In this document: piece by piece, positions 31,918 to 55,724 of the stretch | How positions within the stretch are numbered: position 1 is the first letter of the stretch | Layout: each line of letters opens with the position of its first letter | Origin: Terebella lapidaria | Lineage: Eukaryota > Annelida > Polychaeta > Terebellida > Terebellidae | Assembly: GCA_949152475.1 (NCBI GenBank) | Contig: OX424561.1 | Coordinates: 29,630,481 to 29,694,480 of the forward strand | Reading direction: 5' to 3' | Length of the DNA stretch: 64,000 bases | Made by a program: the position numbers and the translations under genes | The notes under the pieces: model-generated | What the model saw: the letters and a program-made list of their open reading frames with translations, nothing else | What the model was told of the DNA's origin: nothing | Databases searched by the model: none

Positions 31918-32522
31918 CCATACATACATACATCTTAACTCCCAATATGAGCGCCATAGCGGACACGGCTACATGGTATGCCGAGTAAACATCTTCCCAC
32001 TTATGTTGGAGGTATTGCTGCCAGCCACCCTGGGCTTCCACCTCCTGATCCACCATCTCGCCCTGAAATATGACACATTGTTCATGAAGATATGAAATAA
32101 TGCAAAATAAATTACATAATATGTACTACCTCCATGAAAGGACCATGATGACACTTTGTCACAGTTGTCTTCATTGACAAAATATTATTTTCACTCACAA
32201 GGACAACTCTGCCACCAGCGGACAAATAGTCGCAGAGCGACTCCCTCAGCTGCAGATGATCCGTGCTTTGCTGTGTAGGGTCTCTCGTATTGTACACTGC
32301 AGTCACAGCATGAAAAAAGCTGTAGCCGTCTTCAGGGTTTTCAAGATTTGCATCTTGAATCCCTTCGCTTGCAGAACCCTCCGCCCCCCATGCAGCCGTT
32401 TCTATGGCTCCTTCTTTTGGCTCAACTGCCCTCGTTTTTCTCAAAGTTTCTGTGAAATTTTCAAAGTTTTCAAAGTTGAGCACATCAACATCATATTTTG
32501 ACACAAAACAGGGTTTGGACAT
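31918..32522 (-). pseudogene. OTU-domain-like gene fragment, left copy
   Basis: Two minus-strand exons: 32522-32130 (starting MSKPCFVSKYDVDVLNFE) and 32062-31918, joined at GAG|GTAGTA and TTTCAG|GGCGAG in phase. The domain reads NPEDGYSFFHAVTAVY, then LQLRESLCDYLSAGG, then GGWQQYLQHKWEDVYSAYHV, then a hydrophobic strand. This matches the layout of OTU cysteine-protease domains (DGNCFFRA, LR...YL, W..YL). The position of the catalytic Cys is Ser here (DGYS), so deubiquitinase activity is unlikely. The 3' part is cut off at the repeat border. Multicopy mobile origin is possible. Confidence 0.5.
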
Positions 32523-34273
32523 TTTAACACTCAAATAACGAAAACCACTTGATGTCACAAATGCCATATACGAAATACTAAAAGTACACTGATACTTACA
32601 CATTTCTGCTGGCAGGCTTCTGGATTAGAGGTATGCACCTGTAAATTCAATATTTAAATCAATCAAGAAAATAACATGTTGTAACAAGTATGAGACATTG
32701 CATCACACTAATCACATGTACAACACAATACAGTTACATGTATTTTCAAATAACTTTTTCAAGTTACACACCAACACTTGTCTTGGATGGGCCACTATTC
32801 GTTTTACTTGCCATACTGTCGCCTGTAAACATAATCAAATTGTACCAGTATACTATCAAATCCTATACGTAACTAAATATTTATATATTGTTTTGTTCCC
32901 GAGGACACCGTCATATCTCCATAATCAATCTCCTTAGAGCTCTCAATCTGATAGAGCTCTATGGATGATCGAATACAGAATAAAAATTATTAGACATTTC
33001 ATCCCTATCTGACTGCAAGTTGTTTAACCTTCTATTTCATAGGGTTTAGATATCAAGTAATTTTAAATAGTTTTATATATTTATTACTAACTGATTTGGA
33101 TGGGAACATGCGGAATGTTCCCCCTGAGGACACGCTGTTATCCAAGAAGAAGCTGTAAATAACATCGTGTTCGAGGGGGATATTTTGCCATTTACAATAA
33201 TTTATCGACATGATCAACTGTATCTATAGCACTCAGGAGGAAACTCTGCTGAGTACATGAACTGCAGCAGTAACAAGACCAAAGCGATATTATCTCCTAC
33301 TTCATGTATGTAAATAATATAGAAGTTGTACATTATACTATATTATAGTTGTACTTTATTTCGATAAAGCTTAAATATGTTAAACATGATCAATTACGTT
33401 GTGACACCAGATGAATACATAATATATTATGTTGGATAATGTCATGTATGTTATAAAATGATATACCCTGTCTATTGTGTCCCCATTAGTCACCAGCATC
33501 GCTAATATCTGCACAGCTGTTCCAAGTATCTTAATTGTTTTGGATTGCTCTGGATGTTTTCTTTCAAGAACTCCTCCCGCTTTGTTAGCTTCTCCGTACA
33601 TCCCCTGACATAGGGCAAAACAAGTTCCCTCAGTCCTGCAGCGTTCTGCACAGTTATCTTCTGCCAAGCAATGTGGTGGTCTTTGCAGTTTTTGGCAAAA
33701 GTATTTGCAGTATCGGACAGGAAGCCCATTTCTTCTGCCAGTCTCTCTATGTAAGGAATCCAATTTAATTACATATATGACTTAATGGTATTCATTTCAA
33801 GTTGTCCGAAACCAATTTTCATGTACATCCAGTCAAACTCCTGTACATACTAAGGCTGACCCGAATGGCTCAACCTGAAGTGTTTAAGCAAATCCCTTTT
33901 GAACAGAAATGCTATTCTGCGTGCTTTGTATGAAACACTTTTTGCAAACCAGGTATGAGAAGCCATCACAACAAGTAAAGGGGCACCCTCTTGCTGTTCC
34001 TTGGCATCTTTGCACACCATTTTTCATTCAAATATGGCGCAAGACCCTGACCAAATTTTCACAACTGTTTGGATTGCAATTGACTGGCTCAAGCAGTATG
34101 AGATTTTTGGGGGAATGTGTGGCCCGTCTCAACATGTTCATACAGACCACCAGTATCTTCAGGTCTTTCAGCAACATGCAAATCATGTATCATGACTGCC
34201 CGGTCAACTGGCTCTGGTTTTGAAGTTTTAGATATTGGGTGTTTCTTTTTTGCTCTAGCAGCTTTTATGCCTT
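31918..34273. repeat. Left copy of 2,356-bp direct repeat flanking the Penelope array
   Basis: This segment is repeated at 45451-47806 with a constant offset of 13,533 bp and only a handful of single-base differences that I noticed. The left copy ends at GCCTT (34273). After 5 filler bases (TCATG) comes the truncated Penelope unit. It carries parts of a minus-strand gene (OTU-like exons, and others not identified, around 33380-33763). Nothing else recognisable was seen in 32640-33370. Confidence 0.92.
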
Positions 34274-34278
34274 TCATG

Positions 34279-35509
34279 AGTTTCAGGCACAGCCATGGGT
34301 CAGAAATATGCACCTCATTATGCAGATATTTATATGGCTGAATTTGAAAAGCAAGCTTTACAAAAGTGTCCATTCAAACCAGACTGCTATTATAGGTATT
34401 TAGATGACATTTTCCTCATTTGGCCACATGGCATTTCCAAATTTCACCAGTTTCTCGAAATTTTCAATTCTCATAGGGCATCAATCAACTTCAAAGCTGG
34501 AATTAGTACTGATTCAGTTAATTTTTTGGATACTACTTTGTTCAGGAGCAAAGAAAACACATTAGAAGCAAAAGTTTTCTTCAAGCCAACGGATACTCAT
34601 CAGTTGTTGCATAAGCTCTCTTTTCATCCAAAACACACTTATAAAGGACTAATCAAGTCCCAAGTTTTTCGATTTTTCCAAATTTGCTCATATCCAGATG
34701 ATGTTGAATCAGCTTGTCAAATATTATTCAAGGCACTTTCGAAACGTAACTATTCAAAACGTTGGCTTCGCAAAATCAAGAATGAAACATTGAGAATTTT
34801 GAACAGTGAGGAAAGACTAGGTGCTGATTTTCAATTGCCCACTTCCAGCTCGTCTGGCTCAAAACCTTGTAATTCTAGACAATGTCAGACATGTCATTTA
34901 GTTCCAAATTGTCAAAATTTCTCGGGATCAGTTTTTGAACAGACCTACTCAATCAACTCAGCTTTGGATTGCAACTCAGAAAATATAATTTATCTATACA
35001 CTTGTAAGCTTTGCGAAAAACAATATGTAGGTGAAACCGGTAAATCACTCAAATTCAGAAACAATCGTCACCGTGCTGCAATAACTAGCTGCAATGAGGA
35101 AAATGCATTATACAGTCATCTATCTAAATTTCACAGCAAAACTGAATTTTCCATTGAATGTTTTTCTCTTTTACCAATTGAACAGGTTTCCGATCTTGGT
35201 GATGAACTTTTAAACAAACATTGGCGACTTGAAAGGGAATATTGTTGGATTGATACTCTAGGCACTTTCGAACCTCATGGCCTCAACGTTCAAAAATTTA
35301 CAAAGTATGACCCTTTGAACAAAAGTAAAAATAAATTCGACATAGTGTATATAGTACCCTTCTCAAAAACAGGTACTCTTTCAGCCCAAATTGTTAAAAA
35401 GCATATGAAACAACTCAACAAAAATACTGATGGTGATATTAAAATAGCAACAGCTTACAAGAAGCATCAAAATCTTAAAGAACTTTTAGTCAGAAGCAAA
35501 CTTAAATAA
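34279..35509 (+). pseudogene. 5'-truncated Penelope ORF2
   Basis: The copy begins inside the RT palm just before TAMGQKYAPHYADIYM, keeps YRYLDDIF and the whole GIY-YIG domain, and ends at TAA. It is identical to the full copies apart from Gly for Glu near 34500. It has lost ORF1, the RT N-terminus and the promoter. It serves as the upstream part of the left pseudo-LTR. Confidence 0.9.
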
Positions 35510-36129
35510 TCCAACAAAATTTGTTCAATGTCGCTCATTGAATTTTTATTGCTGTTTTATGTTATGTGTTACTCTTACAATTATCTTGTGCCAGTGCATT
35601 TTTTATACTCTCCAAAACATACTTAGCCCGTGCCTAGCATATTGTAAGAGTCAAAACACATTTATAAATATTTTATGAATATTTTGTTTTTCAGTTCATT
35701 TTAGTACATTTTGTTTTTATTTCATCGCATTTTATTTGAAGTCTCCTGAAGCAATGCAAGTCAATTTGACACATCTTCAGTTTCAAAAAAACAATTTCAT
35801 GTCTAATAAAATCTCTGCCTAAGAATCTATTGCTGGAAAGCACCGCAGTAATACCATTTTGAAAATACTTCCTTTCAGCATACTTCAAAAAATATAACTT
35901 CAAACGCTAATTATGTTTATCAATCAACTAACTGCTAATTGTTTTACTCAGTGTCAGATACGCATATAAGAAACAATTAAATTCACTAACTGTTAATTAT
36001 CTATACTCAACATATGTCACTCTTCTTGGCAAACTGTTCTGGAAACTGCTAATTGATTTGCTCAACCATTGGTAAACTGTTAATTGATTTACTCAAACAA
36101 AATTGACATTGGCACAAGCCAATATTTCC

Positions 36130-36137
36130 TATAAATA
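36130..36137 (+). promoter_or_regulatory. TATA box of Penelope unit 1
   Basis: TATAAATA sits about 30-38 bases before the hammerhead-like motif. A Pol II start at about 36162-36168 would begin the RNA right at ribozyme stem I. The copy in unit 2 is at 41045-41052. Confidence 0.6.
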
Positions 36138-36167
36138 CTGCAACCACAGTAGGTTCTCTAGACTTCC

Positions 36168-36205
36168 GCACTTGACAAAGGATTCAACTCCGAAACCGGT
36201 CGTGC
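36168..36205 (+). ncRNA. Hammerhead-like ribozyme motif, unit 1
   Basis: In order: stem I strand GCAC (36168-36171), core box TTGACAA, stem II GGA/TCC around a 6-base loop, GAAA (36192-36195), a minimal stem III in ACCGGT, the cleavage triplet GTC (36199-36201), and stem I return GTGC (36202-36205). Against the CTGANGA consensus, C3 and G8 are both changed (to T and A), which keeps the 3-8 pair. Penelope-like elements are known to carry such motifs. Activity is unproven, because stem III is very short and there is an extra A before stem II. Confidence 0.6.
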
Positions 36206-36222
36206 AACAGGCAGAGTACATT

Positions 36223-36304
36223 GTGAGTAACCTCTTTTATATTGTTTTGTATTTTGTTGTGTTTTAGATACTGGTCAGATTATTGACCATATCTTTGCAT
36301 TCAG
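36223..36304 (+). other. Putative 82-nt intron in Penelope leader
   Basis: Donor GTGAGTAA at 36223 and acceptor GCATTCAG ending at 36304. Penelope itself is known to have a short intron of similar size in its 5' region. An alternative acceptor (GTTTTAG) ends at 36267. The same sequence is at 41138-41219. Confidence 0.45.
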
Positions 36305-36435
36305 GTTTCTTCAAACGTTTTGTTCTCATTTTATACAATTGTTTTTATTTTTCATAATTTTATCCTTTGGTTTTATCATCCAAATCAAACACGTTCTGGT
36401 TTTAATACTTTCAAAATTAATTGCTGAAACGTATC

Positions 36436-38145
36436 ATGGCTCTTTCTAAACCTCCTCACTTCCGTTCTTTTTACACTCTTCTTCAATGTTTTCACCACCT
36501 GTCACTAATGCTCCAGCAGTCTCAAGGCCAAGTCACCAGGGCTTTCAGTAAAAAACAACAACACCTGGATGACTTCATTAAACCTGCTTGTTCTGGTCCC
36601 CTAATCAAACAAAAAATCTCCAAAATTAATCAAAATTGGGTACAAAACGTGACCAAACATTTGGTGGAACACTATGAGAGCTCAATTCAAAACCTTTTGG
36701 CCCACATTTCCTCTTTAGGTTTATCAGATTCGGACATTGCAAATTCGGTAGCTCTCGTCATTCAGCAGGCTAAATCTCATTTCGGCAAAAAACTTCAGGC
36801 TTCCACCATCCAGAAATTCAAAACCTCTACTCTTCCAAATTCCCCTATTCCAAATTCTAACTCTCAATCAAAACCTCAGACTTGCGAGGTAAAAGGTCAC
36901 AAACACCCACTTAGTAATTTCTTCCCACGTAATATATCCTATCGTGGTATGAGATTCCCTAGCCTTGAGCACATCTATCAGTATCACAAAGCCCGGTACC
37001 ATGACTGTCAACACCTAGCCAATCGGATCCTCAGGGCTCCCCATGCAGGAGTGGCCAAACGTTTGGCTAGTGAAATTCCTAGCCTGTCCCCATTCTGGCA
37101 TAAAAGTAAAAATGGAATCATGCGTCAACTTCTTCAAGTTAAGTTTAATTCTTGCAAATTGTTCCGTGACACTCTGATGGGTCTTCCTGAAGGGTGTCAC
37201 ATTGTCCATCCAGTTCCTGACAGCCACTGGGGTGTTAACCGTCATGGTCAAGGCTCTAACTTCTTTGGCCGCCTCCTAATGGACCTAAAACGTGCCAACT
37301 CTCCTACTAACAATCCTAAACCCTCTCGCTCTTCACCTCCATCTTCAAATAACACCCCTCCCTCTGTGTCCACTTCTAACCGCTTCCAACTCCTTGATAC
37401 CCTCTCTAACCCTCCTTGTCTATCATCATCTGATGATTGGCCACCTCTCTCTCGCTCTTCTCCTGATAACCGCCTTAGTGCCACGCCCAAACGGCGTCCG
37501 CGCTCTCCTTCTTCTCCTGAACTCTCACCCTCCTCTCTACCCAAAGGCAAACGCACTCGCTTTGTCTCTCCTAAAAACTCTCCTAACACCACTTTCCATG
37601 TCTCTCCTTCCACTATCAGAGGACCCAAAACTCTTTGGGCCCTTCCTAAACTAACCTCCTCCACTGTCATCCTCGGCTCTTCTAACCTTTCTCGCATCAC
37701 CAAATCCCCTGTCAGTGATATCCAAGTTGTGTCTTATCCTGGAGCTTTGTTCAACCATCTAAGAATGATGTTCACGGCCTGTAAAAAATCATTTGATGCC
37801 CCCCAAAACTTAATCTTAAGTGTAGGCCTGAACAATCGAAGCTCCAAACCAAGTGTTACTTCAATTCCAGAACTGAGGAATATGCTCAGCAGTGCTTTCC
37901 GAATCTTCCCCCACTCCAAAATTCTCATTCCAAAAATTAACTACTCAGACAATCTTCCGTCTGTAGAGAAACGCAACTTGGATATGATTAACAGGGCTTT
38001 GGATGACATGAGTTCACGTTTCAGCAATCTCACAGTTGTTAAACAGTTGGATCCAATCAAGTTTTCTACACAGACAGATAACATTCATTGGACTGAACAA
38101 ACGGCCAATGAAATGTTGAAATTCTGGCTCAGTCATTTAAACTAA
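36436..38145 (+). CDS. Penelope ORF1: NADAR + SGNH-hydrolase-like protein, unit 1
   Basis: 569 codons from ATG at 36436; the frame is open further upstream but without ATG. Residues about 151-286 match the NADAR (YbiA-like) fold: HPLSNFFPR, FPSLEHIYQYHKA, a Trp-containing IPSLSPFWHKSKNGIMRQLL, then SHWGVNRHGQGSNFFGRLLM. NADAR proteins act on ADP-ribose or NAD-related N-glycosidic bonds. A Ser/Pro-rich linker (290-400) follows. Residues 410-569 look like an SGNH/GDSL hydrolase: ILGSSNLSR (nucleophile Ser416), VGLNNR (GxN block) and DNIHW (Asp548, His551). The usual GDS Asp is Ser. CR1-type LINE ORF1s also carry such esterases. The frame ends CAT-TTA-AAC-TAA, which is a frameshift site. Role in the element is unknown. 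Confidence 0.85.
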   Translation: MALSKPPHFRSFYTLLQCFHHLSLMLQQSQGQVTRAFSKKQQHLDDFIKPACSGPLIKQKISKINQNWVQNVTKHLVEHYESSIQNLLAHISSLGLSDSDIANSVALVIQQAKSHFGKKLQASTIQKFKTSTLPNSPIPNSNSQSKPQTCEVKGHKHPLSNFFPRNISYRGMRFPSLEHIYQYHKARYHDCQHLANRILRAPHAGVAKRLASEIPSLSPFWHKSKNGIMRQLLQVKFNSCKLFRDTLMGLPEGCHIVHPVPDSHWGVNRHGQGSNFFGRLLMDLKRANSPTNNPKPSRSSPPSSNNTPPSVSTSNRFQLLDTLSNPPCLSSSDDWPPLSRSSPDNRLSATPKRRPRSPSSPELSPSSLPKGKRTRFVSPKNSPNTTFHVSPSTIRGPKTLWALPKLTSSTVILGSSNLSRITKSPVSDIQVVSYPGALFNHLRMMFTACKKSFDAPQNLILSVGLNNRSSKPSVTSIPELRNMLSSAFRIFPHSKILIPKINYSDNLPSVEKRNLDMINRALDDMSSRFSNLTVVKQLDPIKFSTQTDNIHWTEQTANEMLKFWLSHLN

Positions 38146-38173
38146 ATCATTCTGAGAGTCCACCGAACTCCAG
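38136..38173 (+). promoter_or_regulatory. Putative -1 ribosomal frameshift signal, unit 1
   Basis: The slippery heptamer T-TTA-AAC (38136-38142) is in the correct phase of ORF1 and is followed at once by the ORF1 stop TAA. After a 9-base spacer, a stem-loop runs 38152-38173: CTG(A)GAGT pairs with ACTCCAG, 7 bp with one bulged A and a 7-base loop. A -1 slip continues into ORF2 with CTA at 38142. ORF2 has no ATG until well into its sequence, so some such mechanism is needed. Confidence 0.75.
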
Positions 38174-40424
38174 TACGACTAATAATGTTGTAAACCTTTC
38201 CAAATTTACACTTTCGGACACACAAATCGCTCTTCTAAATCGTGGTTTGACATTTGTTCCCACACCCAAAATAACATTGGATCCAATTAAACAAGCTGTG
38301 CAAGATTTTGGTAGAAAACTCAAACTTCAAAATTATTTTTCTCACCGTCCAAATTCATTCACAAATAGATCAAAATTCACTCCAAAATCTACCTGGACTC
38401 CACCGAGTTCCATGATTGACAAGCCCGTTTTAGATTGCATTTCGGCAATATCTAAGGAAATTGAAAACTTGAAAATTCAACCAGAAACCAAAAACCTAAC
38501 GAAAATGGAATATAAAACTATAAAGATTTTACAAAATAACGTAGACTTGGTAATTAAAAAAGCAGATAAAGGTAGTGCAGTCGTAATTATGGATAGGCAA
38601 AATTATATTAATGAAGGCTTTCGTCAATTATACAATCCAGCTCATTACAGAGAAATTGACACTCCTCTTTACCTAGAAAATTCAGCAAAAATAACAAAAA
38701 TTTTAAAAGGATTACGCAATTCTGGATGCCTTTCTGAAAAAGTATTCCAATTTCTTTTACCACCAGAACGCCCTCGTCAAAGAAGATTTTATATGCTACC
38801 TAAAATTCATAAACCCAAAGACTCCTGGCCAATTCCAAATGTAATGCCTCCAGGGCGCCCAATTGTTTCGGACTGCAGCAGTGAATCTGAAAAGGTAGCT
38901 ATGTATATTGATTCATATATAAAAGATCAAGCAAATAAGCATCCGTCATATATAAAAAACACGTATGACTTTTTAGATAAAGTTAGAGGGCTTGAACTAG
39001 ATCCAAATTCTTTACTAATCACTTTAGATGTTGAAAGTATGTATACTAATATAAATCATGAAGAAGGTATCCAAGCAATTAAAAATGCATTCCCGACTTT
39101 GGCAAACAATGAACTATTCAAAGGTATAATAGAATTATTGGAAATTTCACTTAAATGTAATGACTTTGAATTTGACGGTAAGACATTCCTACAAGTTTCA
39201 GGCACAGCCATGGGTCAGAAATATGCACCTCATTATGCAGATATTTATATGGCTGAATTTGAAAAGCAAGCTTTACAAAAGTGTCCATTCAAACCAGACT
39301 GCTATTATAGGTATTTAGATGACATTTTCCTCATTTGGCCACATGGCATTTCCAAATTTCACCAGTTTCTCGAAATTTTCAATTCTCATAGGGCATCAAT
39401 CAACTTCAAAGCTGAAATTAGTACTGATTCAGTTAATTTTTTGGATACTACTTTGTTCAGGAGCAAAGAAAACACATTAGAAGCAAAAGTTTTCTTCAAG
39501 CCAACGGATACTCATCAGTTGTTGCATAAGCTCTCTTTTCATCCAAAACACACTTATAAAGGACTAATCAAGTCCCAAGTTTTTCGATTTTTCCAAATTT
39601 GCTCATATCCAGATGATGTTGAATCAGCTTGTCAAATATTATTCAAGGCACTTTCGAAACGTAACTATTCAAAACGTTGGCTTCGCAAAATCAAGAATGA
39701 AACATTGAGAATTTTGAACAGTGAGGAAAGACTAGGTGCTGATTTTCAATTGCCCACTTCCAGCTCGTCTGGCTCAAAACCTTGTAATTCTAGACAATGT
39801 CAGACATGTCATTTAGTTCCAAATTGTCAAAATTTCTCGGGATCAGTTTTTGAACAGACCTACTCAATCAACTCAGCTTTGGATTGCAACTCAGAAAATA
39901 TAATTTATCTATACACTTGTAAGCTTTGCGAAAAACAATATGTAGGTGAAACCGGTAAATCACTCAAATTCAGAAACAATCGTCACCGTGCTGCAATAAC
40001 TAGCTGCAATGAGGAAAATGCATTATACAGTCATCTATCTAAATTTCACAGCAAAACTGAATTTTCCATTGAATGTTTTTCTCTTTTACCAATTGAACAG
40101 GTTTCCGATCTTGGTGATGAACTTTTAAACAAACATTGGCGACTTGAAAGGGAATATTGTTGGATTGATACTCTAGGCACTTTCGAACCTCATGGCCTCA
40201 ACGTTCAAAAATTTACAAAGTATGACCCTTTGAACAAAAGTAAAAATAAATTCGACATAGTGTATATAGTACCCTTCTCAAAAACAGGTACTCTTTCAGC
40301 CCAAATTGTTAAAAAGCATATGAAACAACTCAACAAAAATACTGATGGTGATATTAAAATAGCAACAGCTTACAAGAAGCATCAAAATCTTAAAGAACTT
40401 TTAGTCAGAAGCAAACTTAAATAA
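38142..40424 (+). CDS. Penelope ORF2: reverse transcriptase with GIY-YIG endonuclease, unit 1
   Basis: The frame is open from 38112; as a frameshift product it adds about 760 residues to ORF1 (total about 1,329). The RT has KADKGSAVVIM, RFYMLPKIHK, PGRPIVSDCSS, LDVESMYTNI, GTAMGQKYAPHYADIYM, catalytic YLDD (39312-39323) and NFLDTTLFR. A Cys-rich CNSRQCQTCHLVPNC linker precedes the GIY-YIG nuclease (about 39900-40190): IYLYTCKLCEKQYVGET, RNNRHRAAI, LEREYCWIDTLGTFEPHGLN. This is the EN-plus Penelope layout, which nicks target DNA and copies RNA. The first in-frame ATG precedes IDKPVLDC, far downstream of the frame's opening. Confidence 0.93.
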   Translation, partial: LNHSESPPNSSTTNNVVNLSKFTLSDTQIALLNRGLTFVPTPKITLDPIKQAVQDFGRKLKLQNYFSHRPNSFTNRSKFTPKSTWTPPSSMIDKPVLDCISAISKEIENLKIQPETKNLTKMEYKTIKILQNNVDLVIKKADKGSAVVIMDRQNYINEGFRQLYNPAHYREIDTPLYLENSAKITKILKGLRNSGCLSEKVFQFLLPPERPRQRRFYMLPKIHKPKDSWPIPNVMPPGRPIVSDCSSESEKVAMYIDSYIKDQANKHPSYIKNTYDFLDKVRGLELDPNSLLITLDVESMYTNINHEEGIQAIKNAFPTLANNELFKGIIELLEISLKCNDFEFDGKTFLQVSGTAMGQKYAPHYADIYMAEFEKQALQKCPFKPDCYYRYLDDIFLIWPHGISKFHQFLEIFNSHRASINFKAEISTDSVNFLDTTLFRSKENTLEAKVFFKPTDTHQLLHKLSFHPKHTYKGLIKSQVFRFFQICSYPDDVESACQILFKALSKRNYSKRWLRKIKNETLRILNSEERLGADFQLPTSSSSGSKPCNSRQCQTCHLVPNCQNFSGSVFEQTYSINSALDCNSENIIYLYTCKLCEKQYVGETGKSLKFRNNRHRAAITSCNEENALYSHLSKFHSKTEFSIECFSLLPIEQVSDLGDELLNKHWRLEREYCWIDTLGTFEPHGLNVQKFTKYDPLNKSKNKFDIVYIVPFSKTGTLSAQIVKKHMKQLNKNTDGDIKIATAYKKHQNLKELLVRSKLK

Positions 40425-41350
40425 TCCAACAAAATTTGTTCAATGTCGCTCATTGAATTTTTATTGCTGTTTTATGTTATGTGTTACTCTTACAATTATC
40501 TTGTGCCAGTGCATTTTTTATACTCTCCAAAACATACTTAGCCCGTGCCTAGCATATTGTAAGAGTCAAAACACATTTATAAATATTTTATGAATATTTT
40601 GTTTTTCAGTTCATTTTAGTACATTTTGTTTTTATTTCATCGCATTTTATTTGAAGTCTCCTGAAGCAATGCAAGTCAATTTGACACATCTTCAGTTTCA
40701 AAAAAACAATTTCATGCCTAATAAAATCTCTGCCTAAGAATCTATTGCTGGAAAGCACCGCAGTAATACCATTTTGAAAATACTTCCTTTCAGCATACTT
40801 CAAAAAATATAACTTCAAACGCTAATTATGTTTATCAATCAACTAACTGCTAATTGTTTTACTCAGTGTCAGATACGCATATAAGAAACAATTAAATTCA
40901 CTAACTGTTAATTATCTATACTCAACATATGTCACTCTTCTTGGCAAACTGTTCTGGAAACTGCTAATTGATTTGCTCAACCATTGGTAAACTGTTAATT
41001 GATTTACTCAAACAAAATTGACATTGGCACAAGCCAATATTTCCTATAAATACTGCAACCACAGTAGGTTCTCTAGACTTCCGCACTTGACAAAGGATTC
41101 AACTCCGAAACCGGTCGTGCAACAGGCAGAGTACATTGTGAGTAACCTCTTTTATATTGTTTTGTATTTTGTTGTGTTTTAGATACTGGTCAGATTATTG
41201 ACCATATCTTTGCATTCAGGTTTCTTCAAACGTTTTGTTCTCATTTTATACAATTGTTTTTATTTTTCATAATTTTATCCTTTGGTTTTATCATCCAAAT
41301 CAAACACGTTCTGGTTTTAATACTTTCAAAATTAATTGCTGAAACGTATC
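40425..41350 (+). promoter_or_regulatory. Penelope pseudo-LTR / leader of full unit 2
   Basis: Essentially identical to 35510-36435, with one T/C difference near 40717. It contains the TATA box, hammerhead-like motif and putative intron of unit 2. Confidence 0.85.
41083..41120 (+). ncRNA. Hammerhead-like ribozyme motif, unit 2
   Basis: Exact copy of the motif at 36168-36205. Cleavage at both sites of a read-through transcript would release a 4,915-nt unit-length RNA. Confidence 0.6.
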
Positions 41351-43060
41351 ATGGCTCTTTCTAAACCTCCTCACTTCCGTTCTTTTTACACTCTTCTTCA
41401 ATGTTTTCACCACCTGTCACTAATGCTCCAGCAGTCTCAAGGCCAAGTCACCAGGGCTTTCAGTAAAAAACAACAACACCTGGATGACTTCATTAAACCT
41501 GCTTGTTCTGGTCCCCTAATCAAACAAAAAATCTCCAAAATTAATCAAAATTGGGTACAAAACGTGACCAAACATTTGGTGGAACACTATGAGAGCTCAA
41601 TTCAAAACCTTTTGGCCCACATTTCCTCTTTAGGTTTATCAGATTCGGACATTGCAAATTCGGTAGCTCTCGTCATTCAGCAGGCTAAATCTCATTTCGG
41701 CAAAAAACTTCAGGCTTCCACCATCCAGAAATTCAAAACCTCTACTCTTCCAAATTCCCCTATTCCAAATTCTAACTCTCAATCAAAACCTCAGACTTGC
41801 GAGGTAAAAGGTCACAAACACCCACTTAGTAATTTCTTCCCACGTAATATATCCTATCGTGGTATGAGATTCCCTAGCCTTGAGCACATCTATCAGTATC
41901 ACAAAGCCCGGTACCATGACTGTCAACACCTAGCCAATCGGATCCTCAGGGCTCCCCATGCAGGAGTGGCCAAACGTTTGGCTAGTGAAATTCCTAGCCT
42001 GTCCCCATTCTGGCATAAAAGTAAAAATGGAATCATGCGTCAACTTCTTCAAGTTAAGTTTAATTCTTGCAAATTGTTCCGTGACACTCTGATGGGTCTT
42101 CCTGAAGGGTGTCACATTGTCCATCCAGTTCCTGACAGCCACTGGGGTGTTAACCGTCATGGTCAAGGCTCTAACTTCTTTGGCCGCCTCCTAATGGACC
42201 TAAAACGTGCCAACTCTCCTACTAACAATCCTAAACCCTCTCGCTCTTCACCTCCATCTTCAAATAACACCCCTCCCTCTGTGTCCACTTCTAACCGCTT
42301 CCAACTCCTTGATACCCTCTCTAACCCTCCTTGTCTATCATCATCTGATGATTGGCCACCTCTCTCTCGCTCTTCTCCTGATAACCGCCTTAGTGCCACG
42401 CCCAAACGGCGTCCGCGCTCTCCTTCTTCTCCTGAACTCTCACCCTCCTCTCTACCCAAAGGCAAACGCACTCGCTTTGTCTCTCCTAAAAACTCTCCTA
42501 ACACCACTTTCCATGTCTCTCCTTCCACTATCAGAGGACCCAAAACTCTTTGGGCCCTTCCTAAACTAACCTCCTCCACTGTCATCCTCGGCTCTTCTAA
42601 CCTTTCTCGCATCACCAAATCCCCTGTCAGTGATATCCAAGTTGTGTCTTATCCTGGAGCTTTGTTCAACCATCTAAGAATGATGTTCACGGCCTGTAAA
42701 AAATCATTTGATGCCCCCCAAAACTTAATCTTAAGTGTAGGCCTGAACAATCGAAGCTCCAAACCAAGTGTTACTTCAATTCCAGAACTGAGGAATATGC
42801 TCAGCAGTGCTTTCCGAATCTTCCCCCACTCCAAAATTCTCATTCCAAAAATTAACTACTCAGACAATCTTCCGTCTGTAGAGAAACGCAACTTGGATAT
42901 GATTAACAGGGCTTTGGATGACATGAGTTCACGTTTCAGCAATCTCACAGTTGTTAAACAGTTGGATCCAATCAAGTTTTCTACACAGACAGATAACATT
43001 CATTGGACTGAACAAACGGCCAATGAAATGTTGAAATTCTGGCTCAGTCATTTAAACTAA
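41351..43060 (+). CDS. Penelope ORF1: NADAR + SGNH-hydrolase-like protein, unit 2
   Basis: The 569-codon protein is identical to that of unit 1 as far as I can compare, with the same NADAR motifs, Ser/Pro linker and SGNH blocks. Intactness of both copies indicates recent amplification. The same terminal slippery codons are present. Confidence 0.85.
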   Translation: MALSKPPHFRSFYTLLQCFHHLSLMLQQSQGQVTRAFSKKQQHLDDFIKPACSGPLIKQKISKINQNWVQNVTKHLVEHYESSIQNLLAHISSLGLSDSDIANSVALVIQQAKSHFGKKLQASTIQKFKTSTLPNSPIPNSNSQSKPQTCEVKGHKHPLSNFFPRNISYRGMRFPSLEHIYQYHKARYHDCQHLANRILRAPHAGVAKRLASEIPSLSPFWHKSKNGIMRQLLQVKFNSCKLFRDTLMGLPEGCHIVHPVPDSHWGVNRHGQGSNFFGRLLMDLKRANSPTNNPKPSRSSPPSSNNTPPSVSTSNRFQLLDTLSNPPCLSSSDDWPPLSRSSPDNRLSATPKRRPRSPSSPELSPSSLPKGKRTRFVSPKNSPNTTFHVSPSTIRGPKTLWALPKLTSSTVILGSSNLSRITKSPVSDIQVVSYPGALFNHLRMMFTACKKSFDAPQNLILSVGLNNRSSKPSVTSIPELRNMLSSAFRIFPHSKILIPKINYSDNLPSVEKRNLDMINRALDDMSSRFSNLTVVKQLDPIKFSTQTDNIHWTEQTANEMLKFWLSHLN

Positions 43061-43088
43061 ATCATTCTGAGAGTCCACCGAACTCCAG
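43051..43088 (+). promoter_or_regulatory. Putative -1 ribosomal frameshift signal, unit 2
   Basis: TTTAAAC at 43051-43057, then TAA, a 9-base spacer and the same bulged stem-loop. Identical to unit 1. Confidence 0.75.
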
Positions 43089-45339
43089 TACGACTAATAA
43101 TGTTGTAAACCTTTCCAAATTTACACTTTCGGACACACAAATCGCTCTTCTAAATCGTGGTTTGACATTTGTTCCCACACCCAAAATAACATTGGATCCA
43201 ATTAAACAAGCTGTGCAAGATTTTGGTAGAAAACTCAAACTTCAAAATTATTTTTCTCACCGTCCAAATTCATTCACAAATAGATCAAAATTCACTCCAA
43301 AATCTACCTGGACTCCACCGAGTTCCATGATTGACAAGCCCGTTTTAGATTGCATTTCGGCAATATCTAAGGAAATTGAAAACTTGAAAATTCAACCAGA
43401 AACCAAAAACCTAACGAAAATGGAATATAAAACTATAAAGAATTTACAAAATAACGTAGACTTGGTAATTAAAAAAGCAGATAAAGGTAGTGCAGTCGTA
43501 ATTATGGATAGGCAAAATTATATTAATGAAGGCTTTCGTCAATTATACAATCCAGCTCATTACAGAGAAATTGACACTCCTCTTTACCTAGAAAATTCAG
43601 CAAAAATAACAAAAATTTTAAAAGGATTACGCAATTCTGGATGCCTTTCTGAAAAAGTATTCCAATTTCTTTTACCACCAGAACGCCCTCGTCAAAGAAG
43701 ATTTTATATGCTACCTAAAATTCATAAACCCAAAGACTCCTGGCCAATTCCAAATGTAATGCCTCCAGGGCGCCCAATTGTTTCGGACTGCAGCAGTGAA
43801 TCTGAAAAAGTAGCTATGTATATTGATTCATATATAAAAGATCAAGCAAATAAGCATCCGTCATATATAAAAAACACGTATGACTTTTTAGATAAAGTTA
43901 GAGGGCTTGAACTAGATCCAAATTCTTTACTAATCACTTTAGATGTTGAAAGTATGTATACTAATATAAATCATGAAGAAGGTATCCAAGCAATTAAAAA
44001 TGCATTCCCGACTTTGGCAAACAATGAACTATTCAAAGGTATAATAGAATTATTGGAAATTTCACTTAAATGTAATGACTTTGAATTTGACGGTAAGACA
44101 TTCCTACAAGTTTCAGGCACAGCCATGGGTCAGAAATATGCACTTCATTATGCAGATATTTATATGGCTGAATTTGAAAAGCAAGCTTTACAAAAGTGTC
44201 CATTCAAACCAGACTGCTATTATAGGTATTTAGATGACATTTTCCTCATTTGGCCACATGGCATTTCCAAATTTCACCAGTTTCTCGAAATTTTCAATTC
44301 TCATAGGGCATCAATCAACTTCAAAGCTGAAATTAGTACTGATTCAGTTAATTTTTTGGATACTACTTTGTTCAGGAGCAAAGAAAACACATTAGAAGCA
44401 AAAGTTTTCTTCAAGCCAACGGATACTCATCAGTTGTTGCATAAGCTCTCTTTTCATCCAAAACACACTTATAAAGGACTAATCAAGTCCCAAGTTTTTC
44501 GATTTTTCCAAATTTGCTCATATCCAGATGATGTTGAATCAGCTTGTCAAATATTATTCAAGGCACTTTCGAAACGTAACTATTCAAAACGTTGGCTTCG
44601 CAAAATCAAGAATGAAACATTGAGAATTTTGAACAGTGAGGAAAGACTAGGTGCTGATTTTCAATTGCCCACTTCCAGCTCGTCTGGCTCAAAACCTTGT
44701 AATTCTAGACAATGTCAGACATGTCATTTAGTTCCAAATTGTCAAAATTTCTCGGGATCAGTTTTTGAACAGACCTACTCAATCAACTCAGCTTTGGATT
44801 GCAACTCAGAAAATATAATTTATCTATACACTTGTAAGCTTTGCGAAAAACAATATGTAGGTGAAACCGGTAAATCACTCAAATTCAGAAACAATCGTCA
44901 CCGTGCTGCAATAACTAGCTGCAATGAGGAAAATGCATTATACAGTCATCTATCTAAATTTCACAGCAAAACTGAATTTTCCATTGAATGTTTTTCTCTT
45001 TTACCAATTGAACAGGTTTCCGATCTTGGTGATGAACTTTTAAACAAACATTGGCGACTTGAAAGGGAATATTGTTGGATTGATACTCTAGGCACTTTCG
45101 AACCTCATGGCCTCAACGTTCAAAAATTTACAAAGTATGACCCTTTGAACAAAAGTAAAAATAAATTCGACATAGTGTATATAGTACCCTTCTCAAAAAC
45201 AGGTACTCTTTCAGCCCAAATTGTTAAAAAGCATATGAAACAACTCAACAAAAATACTGATGGTGATATTAAAATAGCAACAGCTTACAAGAAGCATCAA
45301 AATCTTAAAGAACTTTTAGTCAGAAGCAAACTTAAATAA
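43057..45339 (+). CDS. Penelope ORF2: reverse transcriptase with GIY-YIG endonuclease, unit 2
   Basis: Same layout as unit 1, with all RT and GIY-YIG motifs present. Noted differences: Asn for Ile near 43440, and Leu for Pro in the QKYALHYADIYM block (44145 region). The latter lies beside the conserved RT motif and might affect activity. After the stop at 45339 only about 110 bases of the 3' flank remain before the array ends at 45449. Confidence 0.93.
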   Translation, partial: LNHSESPPNSSTTNNVVNLSKFTLSDTQIALLNRGLTFVPTPKITLDPIKQAVQDFGRKLKLQNYFSHRPNSFTNRSKFTPKSTWTPPSSMIDKPVLDCISAISKEIENLKIQPETKNLTKMEYKTIKNLQNNVDLVIKKADKGSAVVIMDRQNYINEGFRQLYNPAHYREIDTPLYLENSAKITKILKGLRNSGCLSEKVFQFLLPPERPRQRRFYMLPKIHKPKDSWPIPNVMPPGRPIVSDCSSESEKVAMYIDSYIKDQANKHPSYIKNTYDFLDKVRGLELDPNSLLITLDVESMYTNINHEEGIQAIKNAFPTLANNELFKGIIELLEISLKCNDFEFDGKTFLQVSGTAMGQKYALHYADIYMAEFEKQALQKCPFKPDCYYRYLDDIFLIWPHGISKFHQFLEIFNSHRASINFKAEISTDSVNFLDTTLFRSKENTLEAKVFFKPTDTHQLLHKLSFHPKHTYKGLIKSQVFRFFQICSYPDDVESACQILFKALSKRNYSKRWLRKIKNETLRILNSEERLGADFQLPTSSSSGSKPCNSRQCQTCHLVPNCQNFSGSVFEQTYSINSALDCNSENIIYLYTCKLCEKQYVGETGKSLKFRNNRHRAAITSCNEENALYSHLSKFHSKTEFSIECFSLLPIEQVSDLGDELLNKHWRLEREYCWIDTLGTFEPHGLNVQKFTKYDPLNKSKNKFDIVYIVPFSKTGTLSAQIVKKHMKQLNKNTDGDIKIATAYKKHQNLKELLVRSKLK

Positions 45340-45450
45340 TCCAACAAAATTTGTTCAATGTCGCTCATTGAATTTTTATTGCTGTTTTATGTTATGTGTT
45401 ACTCTTACAATTATCTTGTGCCAGTGCATTTTTTATACTCTCCAAAACAT

Positions 45451-46055
45451 CCATACATACATACATCTTAACTCCCAATATGAGCGCCATAGCGGACACG
45501 GCTACATGGTATGCCGAGTAAACATCTTCCCACTTATGTTGGAGGTATTGCTGCCAGCCACCCTGGGCTTCCACCTCCTGATCCACCATCTCGCCCTGAA
45601 ATATGACACATTGTTCATGAAGATATGAAATAATGCAAAATAAATTACATAATATGTACTACCTCCATGAAAGGACCATGATGACACTTTGTCACAGTTG
45701 TCTTCATTGACAAAATATTATTTTCACTCACAAGGACAACTCTGCCACCAGCGGACAAATAGTCGCAGAGCGACTCCCTCAGCTGCAGATGATCCGTGCT
45801 TTGCTGTGTAGGGTCTCTCGTATTGTACACTGCAGTCACAGCATGAAAAAAGCTGTAGCCGTCTTCAGGGTTTTCAAGATTTGCATCTTGAATCCCTTCG
45901 CTCGCAGAACCCTCCGCCCCCCATGCAGCCGTTTCTATGGCTCCTTCTTTTGGCTCAACTGCCCTCGTTTTTCTCAAAGTTTCTGTGAAATTTTCAAAGT
46001 TTTCAAAGTTGAGCACATCAACATCATATTTTGACACAAAACAGGGTTTGGACAT
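45451..46055 (-). pseudogene. OTU-domain-like gene fragment, right copy
   Basis: Same two exons and the same DGYS in place of DGNC as at 31918-32522. It is cut at its 3' side by the Penelope array. Upstream on the minus strand it would connect, through unidentified exons near 46913-47296, to the zinc-ribbon/SAP part at 47622-48444. A single original gene is likely but not proved. Confidence 0.5.
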
Positions 46056-47806
46056 TTTAACACTCAAATAACGAAAACCACTTGATGTCACAAATGCCAT
46101 ATACGAAATACTAAAAGTACACTGATACTTACACATTTCTGCTGGCAGGCTTCTGGATTAGAGGTATGCACCTGCAAATTCAATATTTAAATCAATCAAG
46201 AAAATAACATGTTGTAACAAGTATGAGACATTGCATCACACTAATCACATGTACAACACAATACAGTTACATGTATTTTCAAATAACTTTTTCAAGTTAC
46301 ACACCAACACTTGTCTTGGATGGGCCACTATTCGTTTTACTTGCCATACTGTCGCCTGTAAACATAATCAAATTGTACCAGTATACTATCAAATCCTATA
46401 CGTAACTAAATATTTATATATTGTTTTGTTCCCGAGGACACCGTCATATCTCCATAATCAATCTCCTTAGAGCTCTCAATCTGATAGAGCTCTATGGATG
46501 ATCGAATACAGAATAAAAATTATTAGACATTTCATCCCTATCTGACTGCAAGTTGTTTAACCTTCTATTTCATAGGGTTTAGATATCAAGTAATTTTAAA
46601 TAGTTTTATATATTTATTACTAACTGATTTGGATGGGAACATGCGGAATGTTCCCCCTGAGGACACGCTGTTATCCAAGAAGAAGCTGTAAATAACATCG
46701 TGTTCGAGGGGGATATTTTGCCATTTACAATAATTTATCGACATGATCGACTGTATCTATAGCACTCAGGAGGAAACTCTGCTGAGTACATGAACTGCAG
46801 CAGTAACAAGACCAAAGCGATATTATCTCCTACTTCATGTATGTAAATAATATAGAAGTTGTACATTATACTATATTATAGTTGTACTTTATTTCGATAA
46901 AGCTTAAATATGTTAAACATGATCAATTACGTTGTGACACCAGATGAATACATAATATATTATGTTGGATAATGTCATGTATGTTATAAAATGATATACC
47001 CTGTCTATTGTGTCCCCATTAGTCACCAGCATCGCTAATATCTGCACAGCTGTTCCAAGTATCTTAATTGTTTTGGATTGCTCTGGATGTTTTCTTTCAA
47101 GAACTCCTCCCGCTTTGTTAGCTTCTCCGTACATCCCCTGACATAGGGCAAAACAAGTTCCCTCAGTCCTGCAGCGTTCTGCACAGTTATCTTCTGCCAA
47201 GCAATGTGGTGGTCTTTGCAGTTTTTGGCAAAAGTATTTGCAGTATCGGACAGGAAGCCCATTTCTTCTGCCAGTCTCTCTATGTAAGGAATCCAATTTA
47301 ATTACATATATGACTTAATGGTATTCATTTCAAGTTGTCCGAAACCAATTTTCATGTACATCCAGTCAAACTCCTGTACATACTAAGGCTGACCCGAATG
47401 GCTCAACCTGAAGTGTTTAAGCAAATCCCTTTTGAACAGAAATGCTATTCTGCGTGCTTTGTATGAAACACTTTTTGCAAACCAGGTATGAGAAGCCATC
47501 ACAACAAGTAAAGGGGCACCCTCTTGCTGTTCCTTGGCATCTTTGCACACCATTTTTCATTCAAATATGGCGCAAGACCCTGACCAAATTTTCACAACTG
47601 TTTGGATTGCAATTGACTGGCTCAAGCAGTATGAGATTTTTGGGGGAATGTGTGGCCCGTCTCAACATGTTCATACAGACCACCAGTATCTTCAGGTCTT
47701 TCAGCAACATGCAAATCATGTATCATGACTGCCCGGTCAACTGGCTCTGGTTTTGAAGTTTTAGATATTGGGTGTTTCTTTTTTGCTCTAGCAGCTTTTA
47801 TGCCTT
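45451..47806. repeat. Right copy of 2,356-bp direct repeat flanking the Penelope array
   Basis: Copy of 31918-34273 starting immediately after the Penelope 3' end; ACAT is shared at the junction. Unlike the left copy it continues into further host sequence at 47807, so the left-copy/array/right-copy order mimics a target-site duplication of extreme length. Confidence 0.92.
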
Positions 47807-48444
47807 CTTTTTGTTTACACTTGACACATATTCTTTGCCGGCTGTCACTTGGAACCCCACACGTCAGACATATGATCACACATATGAAATTGCTGTTCAC
47901 AGTGTTGTTGACAACTTCTTGGGAACAGCCATATTGGTTCAGACTCGGTGGGTCCCCCCAGTGGGGAAAAACAGGAACAGTACCGGTGTGTCTTGTCAGT
48001 GGAACCACCTGGTGAATGTGAGCTGAAGTCTGCAGACCCTGGCTTGCACCGGAAGTAGCCTCAGGGGCCGGCGCGTGTTGTTGTTTACTACTCTCCACAG
48101 TTTGCTGCAGCAGGGATCGTATTTTCCCCCGGCTGTCAGACCTGTCAGGCAAAATATCCACAACTGGTGATGGATCGACACTGTTGTTTATTTCTTGCTG
48201 CTCCGGTGGTCTGGCTACTGTCAGTGTCAGCACCTCTCTCCCTAGTAGTATCAACGACCCTGGAGCGGCCGGTTCGAGGCTGTCTCTTTGAATGACGACC
48301 GTGGGAACTTTCCCCTCTTGTTTGCCGACTGGATGTGTTCGCTTGCCTCAAAGCACGCTTCAGCAAAGTGACCAGAGCAGGACGATTGCTCCACGAAGGC
48401 CAGGTCTTATTTAGACATTTTAGTTCTTCTTTAAGTCTTATCAT
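47622..48444 (-). CDS. SAP / zinc-ribbon gene part, copy A
   Basis: Two overlapping minus-strand frames. One (from 48435) reads LKEELKCLNKTWPS, then RPALVTLLKRALRQA, like the second part of a SAP DNA-binding domain. The other (about 48350-47622) is long and open and contains ICLTCGVPSDSRQRICVKC, a CX2C...CX2C zinc ribbon, followed by a basic stretch. An intron or a frameshift must join them. The SAP start (MAPNKIP...MNVAEL) lies at 57324-57281, beyond the LINE insertions. I do not recognise the full protein; SAP plus Zn ribbon plus OTU could be a mobile-element gene. Confidence 0.45.
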
Positions 48445-48966
48445 TCTTGGTACTATTTAAGATAAGATAAGATAAGATAAGATATACTTTATTGAGTCAT
48501 CGAGATGAAACTTGTAACAGAACAGAACGGCATATAACAAATGAATGACACACGTGATACACAACGGAACTGAGAATTATGAAACATTTGACACAGAGTT
48601 GTACATGCGGATACTGGATGGGATGCAAGAGTTATGGTAGCGAGCAGTTTTACAAAGAATGGTTCTGAGACGGCGTTTTGAAGGAAGATTTACATACAGT
48701 GGATTCAACGGATGACTGGTGTCGTTTATGACCTTACTAGTGAGCTTGCGTAGTTTGTTTTGATAGAGTTCTTGACAAGCAGTAACATGACACATTTTGC
48801 TGGCTATTTGGGTTATACGAAAGAGTTTTTTTTAGGTCCTTTAGTCTAGCGTTGCCGTACCAAGTAACAATGCCGAATGTTATGACATATTCGACGACAG
48901 ATTTGTAGAACATGTCAAGTATGTATCTATCAACACGAAGGTTATTGAGTATTCGCAAAAACGATA

Positions 48967-49690
48967 CTGTAAACGTACAAAATTTCGCGATGTATTAATT
49001 TCGCGAATTTCGCGTTTGAAAAAAAAAACGCGAAAATAAATACACGCGAAAATACGGCGAAAATAAATACATATGCAGACCACATCACGCTTGAAATCTT
49101 ATCAAAGATTTAATGTGTTCCATCCGTGTTGTCGCTCACCGAAAAAGGCATTTGTGAGACAATTATCGCCCATAGGTCGCTGAAGATGTCACGTGTCACT
49201 CTGACACTGGATACTTCTATGACCAACAGCACTTTGTTAGTGTAGTTCGTCGGGAAAATGACCAGCCGGCAGAACAACTCATGTGATAATTGTCTCACAA
49301 ATGCCTTCCTTGGTTGATGTCGCCACTGTTACTTCATGTGCTCTGGCAGAAATAAACAATGAGTAGATTTATTGAGTATTGATCGTTTGTGTTTTGTTGA
49401 CTGTCTGAATATACTAGTATGCTAGTATAGCAACATACTAGTGCTAGTATAGCAACATACTAGTGCTAGTATAACGTGAACATACTGTACAAGTATTGTA
49501 CTACTGATCATTTGCAGTTTATGGCAAACATACATCTGTGATCAATAATATTTGGGCCTTGTGCAATTACTACCAATTTAAAATACCTGATCCCACACCC
49601 AACATAAAAACGCGAACTTGAATCCACGCGAACCTGTTGAGATGTTGAAAACGCGAACATTGATACACGCGAAATTTTATACGTTTACAG
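48967..49690. mobile_element. MITE with CTGTAAACGTA ends, TA target, copy A
   Basis: Inverted ends CTGTAAACGTA...AAAATTTCGCG of about 40 bp are flanked by TA (48965-48966 and 49691-49692). Taking out the element and one TA restores the LINE frame exactly (GLRRI-S-FLRILNN), which confirms the borders. TTCGCG phrases repeat near both ends. A perfect 23-bp inner inverted repeat lies at 49145-49167 and 49285-49307 (GATAATTGTCTCACAAATG core). Confidence 0.9.
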
Positions 49691-50418
49691 TATGCGTCTG
49701 AGCCCTTTACAATACAATTGGTGGATGTTTTCAGAGCCGGACAGGTTTTGGTCAATAATTGTACCCAAATACTTATAATCGTTGACAATGTCGATGCCTT
49801 GATCCTTTATTCTTACTGGCTGTGATGCATGAATGTTACGACTAAAGATGAGAATTAGTTCCTTTGTGTTTTTAACATTGAGTTCCAGAAAATGTGTTTG
49901 ACACCAGTGAACAAAAGTAGCAATTAATTCTCGGTATGCTGATTCATCTTGGTCTGTAATGTTACCAACTATGGCAGTGTCATCTGCATACTTGAATATA
50001 TGACAATCAGCTAATTGGCTAGAGCAATCGTTAGTATACAGTGAGAACAACACAGGAGAAAGTACACACCCTTGCGGTGCTCCAGTATTGGTATGAACAA
50101 TGGTAGATGTTGTGTTATTGAGCTTTACAAATTGTGGCCTGTTTGTGAGGAAACTATATATCCACCTGATTAGTGAGTTGTTTACATTTAGTTGGTGCAG
50201 TTTTCCGAGAAGTATGTGCGGCTGTATAATGTTGAACGCACTGGTGAAATCAACAAACAAAACTCTTGAGTAGTTACCCGGGCAGTCGGTATGTGAGTAC
50301 AGTTGGTGAAGTAGGGCACACGTGGCGTCATCAACACATCTATGTTGTTTATATGCAAACTGATATGGGTCAAGTGAACCAATGACCTGATTACACAATA
50401 GTTTTCTAACAATAAGCC

Positions 50419-50663
50419 AGTTCGGAAATGTTTCTAGGTCAGGTCAAGTGGTATAAACAAAACGTTCGTACACACTACGTTCAAACGTGAGTGACGCGGT
50501 GAACTCGAAGTAAACAAAGTATTTAGTATTGTACAGGCGAAATCGAGTAATGTGTTGGTGACAGTGACTCGACAATGGTAGTGTGACAGCATGGGTTGGC
50601 TATGTTTATACCACTTGACCCTGACCCAATTCCACTGACCTGACCTGAAAACATTTCCGAACT
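50419..50663. mobile_element. MITE with AGTTCGGAAATG ends, copy A
   Basis: Ends AGTTCGGAAATGTTT and AGGTCAGGTCA are inverted at both sides, and GGTCAAGTGGTATAAACA is also inverted further in. No target duplication is visible, but removing 50419-50663 restores the LINE frame (KCLEKIR-GLIVRKLL). Confidence 0.75.
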
Positions 50664-51181
50664 CACGTATTTTCTCAAGACATTTCATGATGATACTGGT
50701 TAGGGCAACAGGTCTGAGATCATTGTTCACAAGAGGAACATTGCATTTGGGCACTGGAACTATTGCAGATGTTTTTTCACAACAAGGGGATATAATGACT
50801 GTCCAGGGAGCATTGGAACAACAGAAGCAATGGGTAAGTGAGTTGTTGTTTACATGTTTTGACAGTTCTACCACATATATTATCTGGACGGCAAGCTTTG
50901 TTTGGTTTCACTGTGTTCAAAGCAGATAACACATCAAGGTCACTGAGGATAATCTTGTCATACATGCCTTCATTTATTTGATCCAACACTTGGCTACATT
51001 CAAGTGAAAAATCAGTTTTGTCAAATCTGGCATAGAACCTGTTCAAATTATTGACAAATTCAATGATTCCATTATGTACATTGAATGATATGGCAGGTTT
51101 ATATCCAGTCAACATCTTCAGGCCATGCCAAGCATCTTTGGTGTTGTTGCTTTTGAAGAGATGTTCAATTTTACATTTGTA

Positions 51182-51397
51182 CGAGCCATCCGTCCTAAAT
51201 TCGCCGCATCCCAAAATTCGCCAACTCAATATTATCAGAGCTCAGAAACTCGGTTTATGGAAAACAAACCGCTGGTACTAATATTGAATATCAGAGTCTC
51301 GATTGATGATAAGACTGGTTGGTTTCATTTGCATTACAAGGTCTGAAAACCCTGTTGGCGAATTTGGGAATGCGGCGAATTTAGGACGGACGGCTCG
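51182..51397. mobile_element. 216-bp MITE with CGAGCC ends, TA target, copy A
   Basis: Inverted ends CGAGCCRTCCGTCC plus TAAATTCGCCGCAT (about 43 bp) are flanked by TA. Excision of the element with one TA restores the LINE frame (AKHN-Y-KCKIEHLF). Likely mobilised by a Tc1/mariner-type transposase. Confidence 0.9.
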
Positions 51398-51926
51398 TAG
51401 TTATGTTTGGCAGATTAAATAGCCTTGTTAAGCTGTTTTTGTACAACTTTAAGTTTTGATCTATCTTTGCTGGCAAGTGCAATCTTTTTTTCATTCAACA
51501 GTAGTTTTAGATCCTTAGTTACCCAGGGCTTATTATTGCCATACACAGTGATAGACTTAGTGGGAATGATGTTGCCTACACAGAAATTAATGTAGTCTGT
51601 GATAACTTCAACCTTTGACTTAATGATATTCATTTCAAGTTGTCCGAAACCAATTTTCATGTACATCCAGTCAAACTCCTGTACATACTAAGGCTGACCC
51701 GAATGGCTCAACCTGAAGTGTTTAAGCAAATCCCTTTTGAACAGAAATGCTATTCTGCGTGCTTTGTATGAAACACTTTTTGCAAACCAGGTATGAGAAG
51801 CCATCACAACAAGTAAAGGGGCACCCTCTTGCTGTTCCTTGGCATCTTTGCACACCATTTTTCATTCAAATATGGCGCAAGACCCTGACCAAATTTTCAC
51901 AACTGTTTGGATTGCAATTGACTGGC

Positions 51927-54708: not shown

Positions 54709-54728
54709 TAGTTTTCTAACAATAAGCC

Positions 54729-55707: not shown

Positions 55708-55724
55708 TAGTTATGTTTGGCAGA

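Follow-up and report, generated by a model that had tools for sequence, protein, structure and literature searches.

The element described here is a young, abundant, endonuclease-bearing Penelope-like retrotransposon, to judge from its sequence, with a Gag-like upstream protein (ORF1p). The ORF1 of this Penelope element joins a NADAR to an SGNH domain, a combination that selection preserves and that, with the predicted Gag-Pol-like fusion, appears to be new. The element lies in an array inside the 64,000-nucleotide stretch of Terebella lapidaria DNA that was analysed, hereafter the window (Table 1). The tandem units measure 4915 bp and the first is truncated, an arrangement in the tandem or partial-tandem manner of Penelope-like elements, and the host DNA copies on either side are 99.87% identical. 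The spacer between units was not observed in full-length solitary copies; five such copies begin at unit position 648-655 (window 36157-36164). An identical intact copy had been reported in an earlier note on this DNA, and the ORF1 protein of the second full copy is indeed identical to that of the first. Elsewhere in the window, 47311-51617 is duplicated in tandem at 51616-55927 (4.3 kb, 99.7%), and fragments of another retroelement occur there; frames resembling an RT (49685-50443, 53995-54708) and an endonuclease (55725-57029) were named by eye. Self-comparison also revealed tandem repetition at about 1166-2062, the period being about 147 bp.

Table 1. Features of the element array and its flanks, in positions of the window.
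Feature	Position	Strand	Remarks
Host DNA direct duplication, 5' copy	31918..34273	.	2356 bp; 5 nt gap to element array
First Penelope-like element copy	34279..35622	+	5'-truncated, end of ORF2 only
pLTR-like spacer between units	35623..36158	+	contains TATAAATA at 36130-36137
Full copy 1	36159..40537	+	in the form found alone elsewhere in the genome
ORF1, full copy 1	36436..38145	+	569 aa: helical domain, NADAR, linker, SGNH
N-terminal helical domain	36460..36831	+	residues 9-132; common to relatives without NADAR
NADAR domain	36880..37299	+	residues 149-288; profile match, alignment, fold
SGNH hydrolase domain	37654..38142	+	residues 407-569; profile match, fold, block residues
ORF2 open frame, full copy 1	38112..40424	+	-1 relative to ORF1
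Heptamer T TTA AAC	38136..38142	+	in frame, directly ahead of ORF1 stop TAA
RT domain in ORF2	about 38976-39410	+	
GIY-YIG domain in ORF2	about 39900-40172	+	
ORF1, full copy 2	41351..43060	+	protein identical to copy 1
ORF2 open frame, full copy 2	43027..45339	+	
Array 3' end	45421..45450	+	ending CTCTCCAAAACAT
Host DNA direct duplication, 3' copy	45451..47806	.	2356 bp

In ORF1p a helical domain is followed by domains of NADAR and SGNH fold. The earlier note had read ORF1 as NADAR plus an SGNH-like domain, and both identities are borne out by profile match and fold, results which rule out a chance match as the source of the domain calls. The SGNH part matches structure 4c1b at 6e-8 in a profile search and has the block residues S, G, N and D-H; the rows of VIA-align cover both SGNH and NADAR. 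The relatives P0009 and P0019 no longer have the catalytic residues of SGNH, Ser being replaced by Gly or Gln and His by Phe or Gln, so that not every lineage requires esterase activity.

The NADAR active site was mapped via alignment to 8bau and to the residues given in PMC11543638, and 11 NADAR-bearing ORF1 rows were compared. E43, K50, W89 and W133 of 8bau correspond to E178, K185, W221 and W265, invariant in all 11; the first two belong to the ADP-ribose site by which a NADAR is recognised. The counterpart of K75/K115 is Lys in ten rows and Arg in one. The YbiA-type catalytic glutamate, E125 of 8bau, is conserved in P0012 alone and replaced by V, S, T or A in the other ten, the window ORF1 carrying V257 in place of this mark of the YbiA subfamily. 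The catalytic acid may have been lost from the ORF1 NADAR. A His stands two residues ahead of this position in seven of the eight rows with a residue there, and we infer that it is the counterpart of the phage NADAR His.

Regarding ORF2, an RVT_1 match (E 3.5e-11) is followed by a GIY-YIG domain with the motif IYL...YVGETG, which PF01541 matches over residues 552-642 at 21.8 bits, just below the cut-off of 22.6. The same domain scored 30 bits in the relative P0063, with no match in P0034, a cut-short protein, or in P0040. RT relatives numbered 1915 at E 1e-20 among 7990 scored. The assignment to Penelope made in the earlier note is supported by the RT, the GIY-YIG domain and the tandem units; the type itself, which we regard as probable, is read from these features, the RT tree containing no named Penelope reference. 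An Rfam scan of the window at gathering, in which a hammerhead ribozyme, a frequent component of the pLTR in Penelope-like elements, was sought, gave no match, and at E<=5 over 35400-41500 there were two weak mir-891 matches and nothing else.

The two frames are predicted to be joined, an ORF1-RT-EN fusion arising via -1 frameshifting at U UUA AAC, which we take to be a known site of this kind. ORF1 ends in CAT TTA AAC TAA, a scan found no second slippery heptamer in its frame, and the heptamer is present in all 29 matches of an upstream pattern across the fetched loci (overlapping loci counted apart). ORF2 reads open from 38112 onward; the conserved GLTFVPTP block precedes its first ATG, which is codon 101. 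Among the 19 related proteins, the ORF1 C-terminus is LN in 13, and four more have LN within the last 13 residues; P0018, which ends early, and P0019 are without the LN end, which counts against the frameshift. The start ...FKL is seen in four of the 12 listed ORF2 proteins (P0023, P0027, P0028, P0034), the others starting further in. An ORF1 ending ...LN together with an ORF2 beginning ...FKL implies TTTAAAY in P0006/P0028 and P0008/P0034, if the frames overlap as in the window. A 9-bp stem predicted 8 nt 3' of the heptamer was no stronger than in shuffles (z -0.45).

In the genome, 76 copies were scored of 1254 candidates, all of them at 98-100% identity. Outside it, 19 related ORF1 proteins were found, 11 with NADAR and eight with the helical part and SGNH but without NADAR; P0001 is 99% identical to ORF1 and the ten other NADAR relatives are 29-53% identical in the alignment. 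A further protein search returned two additional NADAR proteins, P0140 and P0141, and nothing more. The NADAR-SGNH order is common to relatives from other sources, so that a one-off capture, the outcome that the earlier note had named as fatal to its reading, did not materialise; it is ruled out by the genome copies, the outside relatives and the purifying shared changes described below. Viral contigs gave no match when scanned with part of ORF1 or with query A4, and query A1 matched L041 and L042 over the NADAR part only. A search of the genome with P0017 gave 67 matches over the SGNH part, many at known element copies, and no NADAR-less family was recognised.

Among the RT matches listed, four of the ten NADAR ORF1 contigs pair with an RT contig by source and length (P0002/P0026, P0003/P0025, P0006/P0028, P0008/P0034), a number reached by none of 200,000 simulated sets in a test on 61 of the 120 listed RT rows with lengths entered by hand. 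The remaining listed rows, compared by eye, held no additional pair, and none of the eight NADAR-less ORF1s paired with an RT contig among the matches listed. In an RT tree of 61 of 121 rows, the four paired RTs and that of the window fall in one 12-row clade (SH-aLRT 100). In the ORF1 tree, calculated with the NADAR columns removed, nine NADAR rows form a clade (96/92) and P0010 and P0012 (long branch) group with NADAR-less rows (88/87), which requires two changes of NADAR presence, compatible with gain or loss.

A second, stronger-scoring NADAR group was also observed in the genome (E 1e-48 to 1e-31; at least 150 places, from 973 candidates), in frames of 136-568 aa (one of 812) on C273 and on all of C1-C17 apart from C10. 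One copy, among L050 and L051, has a coiled-coil part with the NADAR at its C-terminal end and a motif that we presume to be of LINE-1/Tx1-type ORF1, a type not confirmed by Pfam and PDB searches of this group; in the 1.4 kb behind a copy the longest frame is 93 aa.

Changes shared by at least two copies are purifying, in the dN/dS comparison of ORF1 across copies that the earlier note had proposed. Their omega-like ratio is 0.08 in NADAR (CI 0-0.27; three nonsynonymous and ten synonymous changes), 0.08 in the N-terminal part, 0.18 in SGNH, 0.31 in the linker and 0.14 (0.09-0.21) in ORF2, these intervals being rough because the copies are related, and the counts being small. Singletons gave 0.56 for ORF1 and 0.53 for ORF2 (0.48-0.80 by region), and pairwise pN/pS agrees with the shared changes (NADAR 0.12, N-terminal 0.16, SGNH 0.24, linker 0.41, ORF2 0.17). 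The sample comprised 39 ORF1 stretches, 28 of them distinct, with at least 1500 of 1707 nt, shorter ones being left out, and 26 distinct ORF2 stretches of at least 1900 nt; codons with gaps or stops were left out, three of the 28 distinct ORF1s containing a stop. The low omega of shared changes, small as the counts are, is the pattern expected of a domain needed for transposition. Since relatives have the same NADAR-SGNH protein and selection preserves it, it probably does a job for the element.

The best explanation as a whole, which we hold with moderate confidence, is that the NADAR of a fused NADAR-SGNH ORF1p removes guanine-linked ADP-ribose. Ribosomes would make mostly ORF1p plus some ORF1-RT-EN fusion, through which NADAR and SGNH could travel with the enzyme copying and inserting the element. 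The helical domain would assemble the RNP, and the SGNH domain may bind or cleave lipid, a role already suggested for the ORF1 esterases of LINEs. The NADAR would bind guanine-linked ADP-ribose on the RNA or cDNA of the element or on the opened target DNA and remove it, so that the template would stay readable despite host transferases. Countering ADP-ribosylation or processing ADP-ribosylated nucleic acid, as the earlier note suggested, would fit the known NADAR activity. According to the accessible sections of PMC11125620, four NADAR subtypes from E. coli strains and a phage all cleaved guanosine-ADPr in vitro, and in E. coli C7 NADAR efficient hydrolysis of guanine-ADPr depends on K95 (equivalent to K50), and K115 is dispensable for catalysis but required for rescue by the antitoxin (PMC11543638, in the part available). 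Several observations count against such a removal: the YbiA-type glutamate is replaced in ten of 11 rows, although phage NADARs with His there are active in vitro; E88A, a change in the residue matching E178, altered the activity only slightly in vitro (same part of PMC11543638); YbiA and phage NADARs failed to shield cells from DarT1 (PMC11125620, accessible sections); D130 is kept in 9 of 11 rows and R79 is not kept, the structure model being weak just there; and the wider ORF1 family can do without NADAR, eight of 19 members lacking it. A search of the genome with PF22596 (pierisin/scabin-like transferase) gave no match, but 14 control genomes were equally silent, so this negative carries no weight.

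It is conceivable, if rather improbable, that the NADAR acts as a reader, binding ADP-ribose, NAD or nucleotide ends without catalysis and serving in RNP assembly or in targeting to ADP-ribosylated chromatin at breaks. The four ligand residues are invariant, yet the YbiA acid is replaced in ten of 11 rows, and the adjoining SGNH is without catalytic residues in P0009 and P0019; against this, phage NADARs with His in place of E125 do hydrolyse guanosine-ADPr in vitro (PMC11543638 and PMC11125620, as far as their accessible text goes), and the ORF1 rows have a His nearby whose equivalence is inferred. It seems unlikely that the domain instead acts on protein, taking ADP-ribose off proteins of the element or host that antiviral PARPs or silencing factors have marked. 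Such a counter-defence fits the role of NAD/ADP-ribose enzymes in virus-host conflict (PMC9503650, in part), the recurrence of NADAR in unrelated retrotransposons (PMC12477816, in part) and its presence at no fewer than 150 other scored places in this genome; the NADAR activity described in the available sections of PMC11543638 and PMC11125620, however, is on guanine in nucleic acid. There is very little to be expected of a YbiA-like N-glycosidase acting on riboflavin intermediates or free nucleotides as a metabolic side effect: NCBIfam TIGR02464 (riboflavin biosynthesis intermediates N-glycosidase) matches ORF1 at E 5.7e-17, but its 62.4 bits lie below the cut-off of 73.7, and a transposon has no clear gain from a metabolic enzyme. 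A neutral passenger captured by the element is the most improbable of all; the absence of NADAR from part of the relatives would suit it, but NADAR omega is low in shared changes, its position is the same in all 11 aligned NADAR-bearing ORF1s and 74 of the 76 scored copies are without stop.

The insertion sites are also unusual; neither their kilobase duplications nor the frameshift site figured in the earlier note. Short target-site duplications are usual, not defining, for Penelope-like elements, and those of bdelloid Penelope elements are, in the part of the literature available, of 8-10 bp or none; here, of 23 places inspected (the window plus 22 fetched loci), 11 have direct duplications of 0.34-4.3 kb adjoining the element. 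Besides the 2356 bp of the window, they measure 445 bp in L022 (100%), 2393 in L026, 1796 in L027, 2206 in L028, 1485 in L030, 339 in L033, 1835 in L035, 1500 in L037 and 1972 in L040 (100%), while the one in L039, about 4.3 kb long, is older, shows breaks and has copies 93-95% alike. For L026, L028 and L030, lengths of about 2394, 2206 and 1484 had been written down beforehand, and extra flank gave 2393, 2206 and 1485. No flanking duplication was found within the flank examined in L021, L025, L029, L038 and L043; L024 and L031 sit in satellites, and arrays run off the locus in L023, L032, L034, L036 and L044. Two tandem ACAT units lie within 25 nt ahead of the duplication in six of eight non-nested cases (by eye), the base rate being 266 of 80,544 25-mers, and in L028 and L033, which are nested insertions, the start of the duplication coincides with an older element's 3' end. 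The 3' end of the element (AAAACATAC) could pair with ACAT repeats at the 3' junction.

The pattern resembles target-primed insertion at ACAT repeats in which the second cut is made at a great distance; the rival reading is a tandem duplication whose joint holds the element. Older tandem repeats were rejected as a general cause, since both borders come to within 0-5 nt of the element at each of the 10 tabulated places, and assembly error appears unlikely given the different lengths and the 0-0.9% divergence among ten duplications. We would put little weight on the wider proposal that a NADAR-SGNH-RT-EN fusion inserts via cuts 0.3-4 kb apart from ACAT microsatellites, the NADAR clearing ADP-ribose off exposed single strands. 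If true, it would be a new insertion route duplicating kilobases of host DNA, with a base-ADP-ribosylation eraser built in. If these are true target-site duplications, many insertions would become segmental duplications and the picture of Penelope integration would change.

The earlier note knew of no described role for NADAR in Penelope-like elements, and our literature search likewise found none described there, other co-mentions being name matches by title; the parts themselves are in print, as the accessible sections of the following papers indicate. SGNH-esterase ORF1p is known from CR1/L2, RTEX and Penelope-like elements (Schneider et al. 2013, PMC3905857), the esterase occurring 'even in Penelope-like elements', likewise in an upstream ORF1; here, in contrast, NADAR lies between the helical part and SGNH, with a predicted -1 frameshift into RT-EN. 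NADAR has been found inside the Gypsy Pol of Ectocarpus and the Tx1 LINE ORF1 of oyster (PMC12477816), which are LTR and LINE elements, whereas here the RT is of Penelope type and NADAR is joined to SGNH. Terminons, the giant Penelope-like elements of bdelloid rotifers (PMC6431247, PMC5408684), combine a Penelope-type RT with GDSL esterase/lipase ORFs, but reach 40 kb, are telomeric, have no endonuclease joined to the RT, and in the available text of PMC6431247 are described without mention of NADAR. Poseidon PAc of Anolis (PMC11167929) likewise has RT and GIY-YIG, tandem units and an AC-rich initiation region; one ORF is described for it in the accessible part, whereas here ORF1 precedes and the flanking duplications are kilobases long. 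Unlike the DarT1-associated NADAR and Phytophthora NADAR 8bau (PMC11543638), the present domain has its catalytic acid replaced and belongs to the protein of a mobile element, in which no adjacent transferase gene was seen.

In the sources available, NADARs have been assigned roles mainly in bacterial toxin-antitoxin pairs, and this young element offers a eukaryotic setting in which NADAR function can be tested. A NADAR under purifying selection beside an RT suggests that nucleic-acid ADP-ribosylation may restrain retrotransposons.
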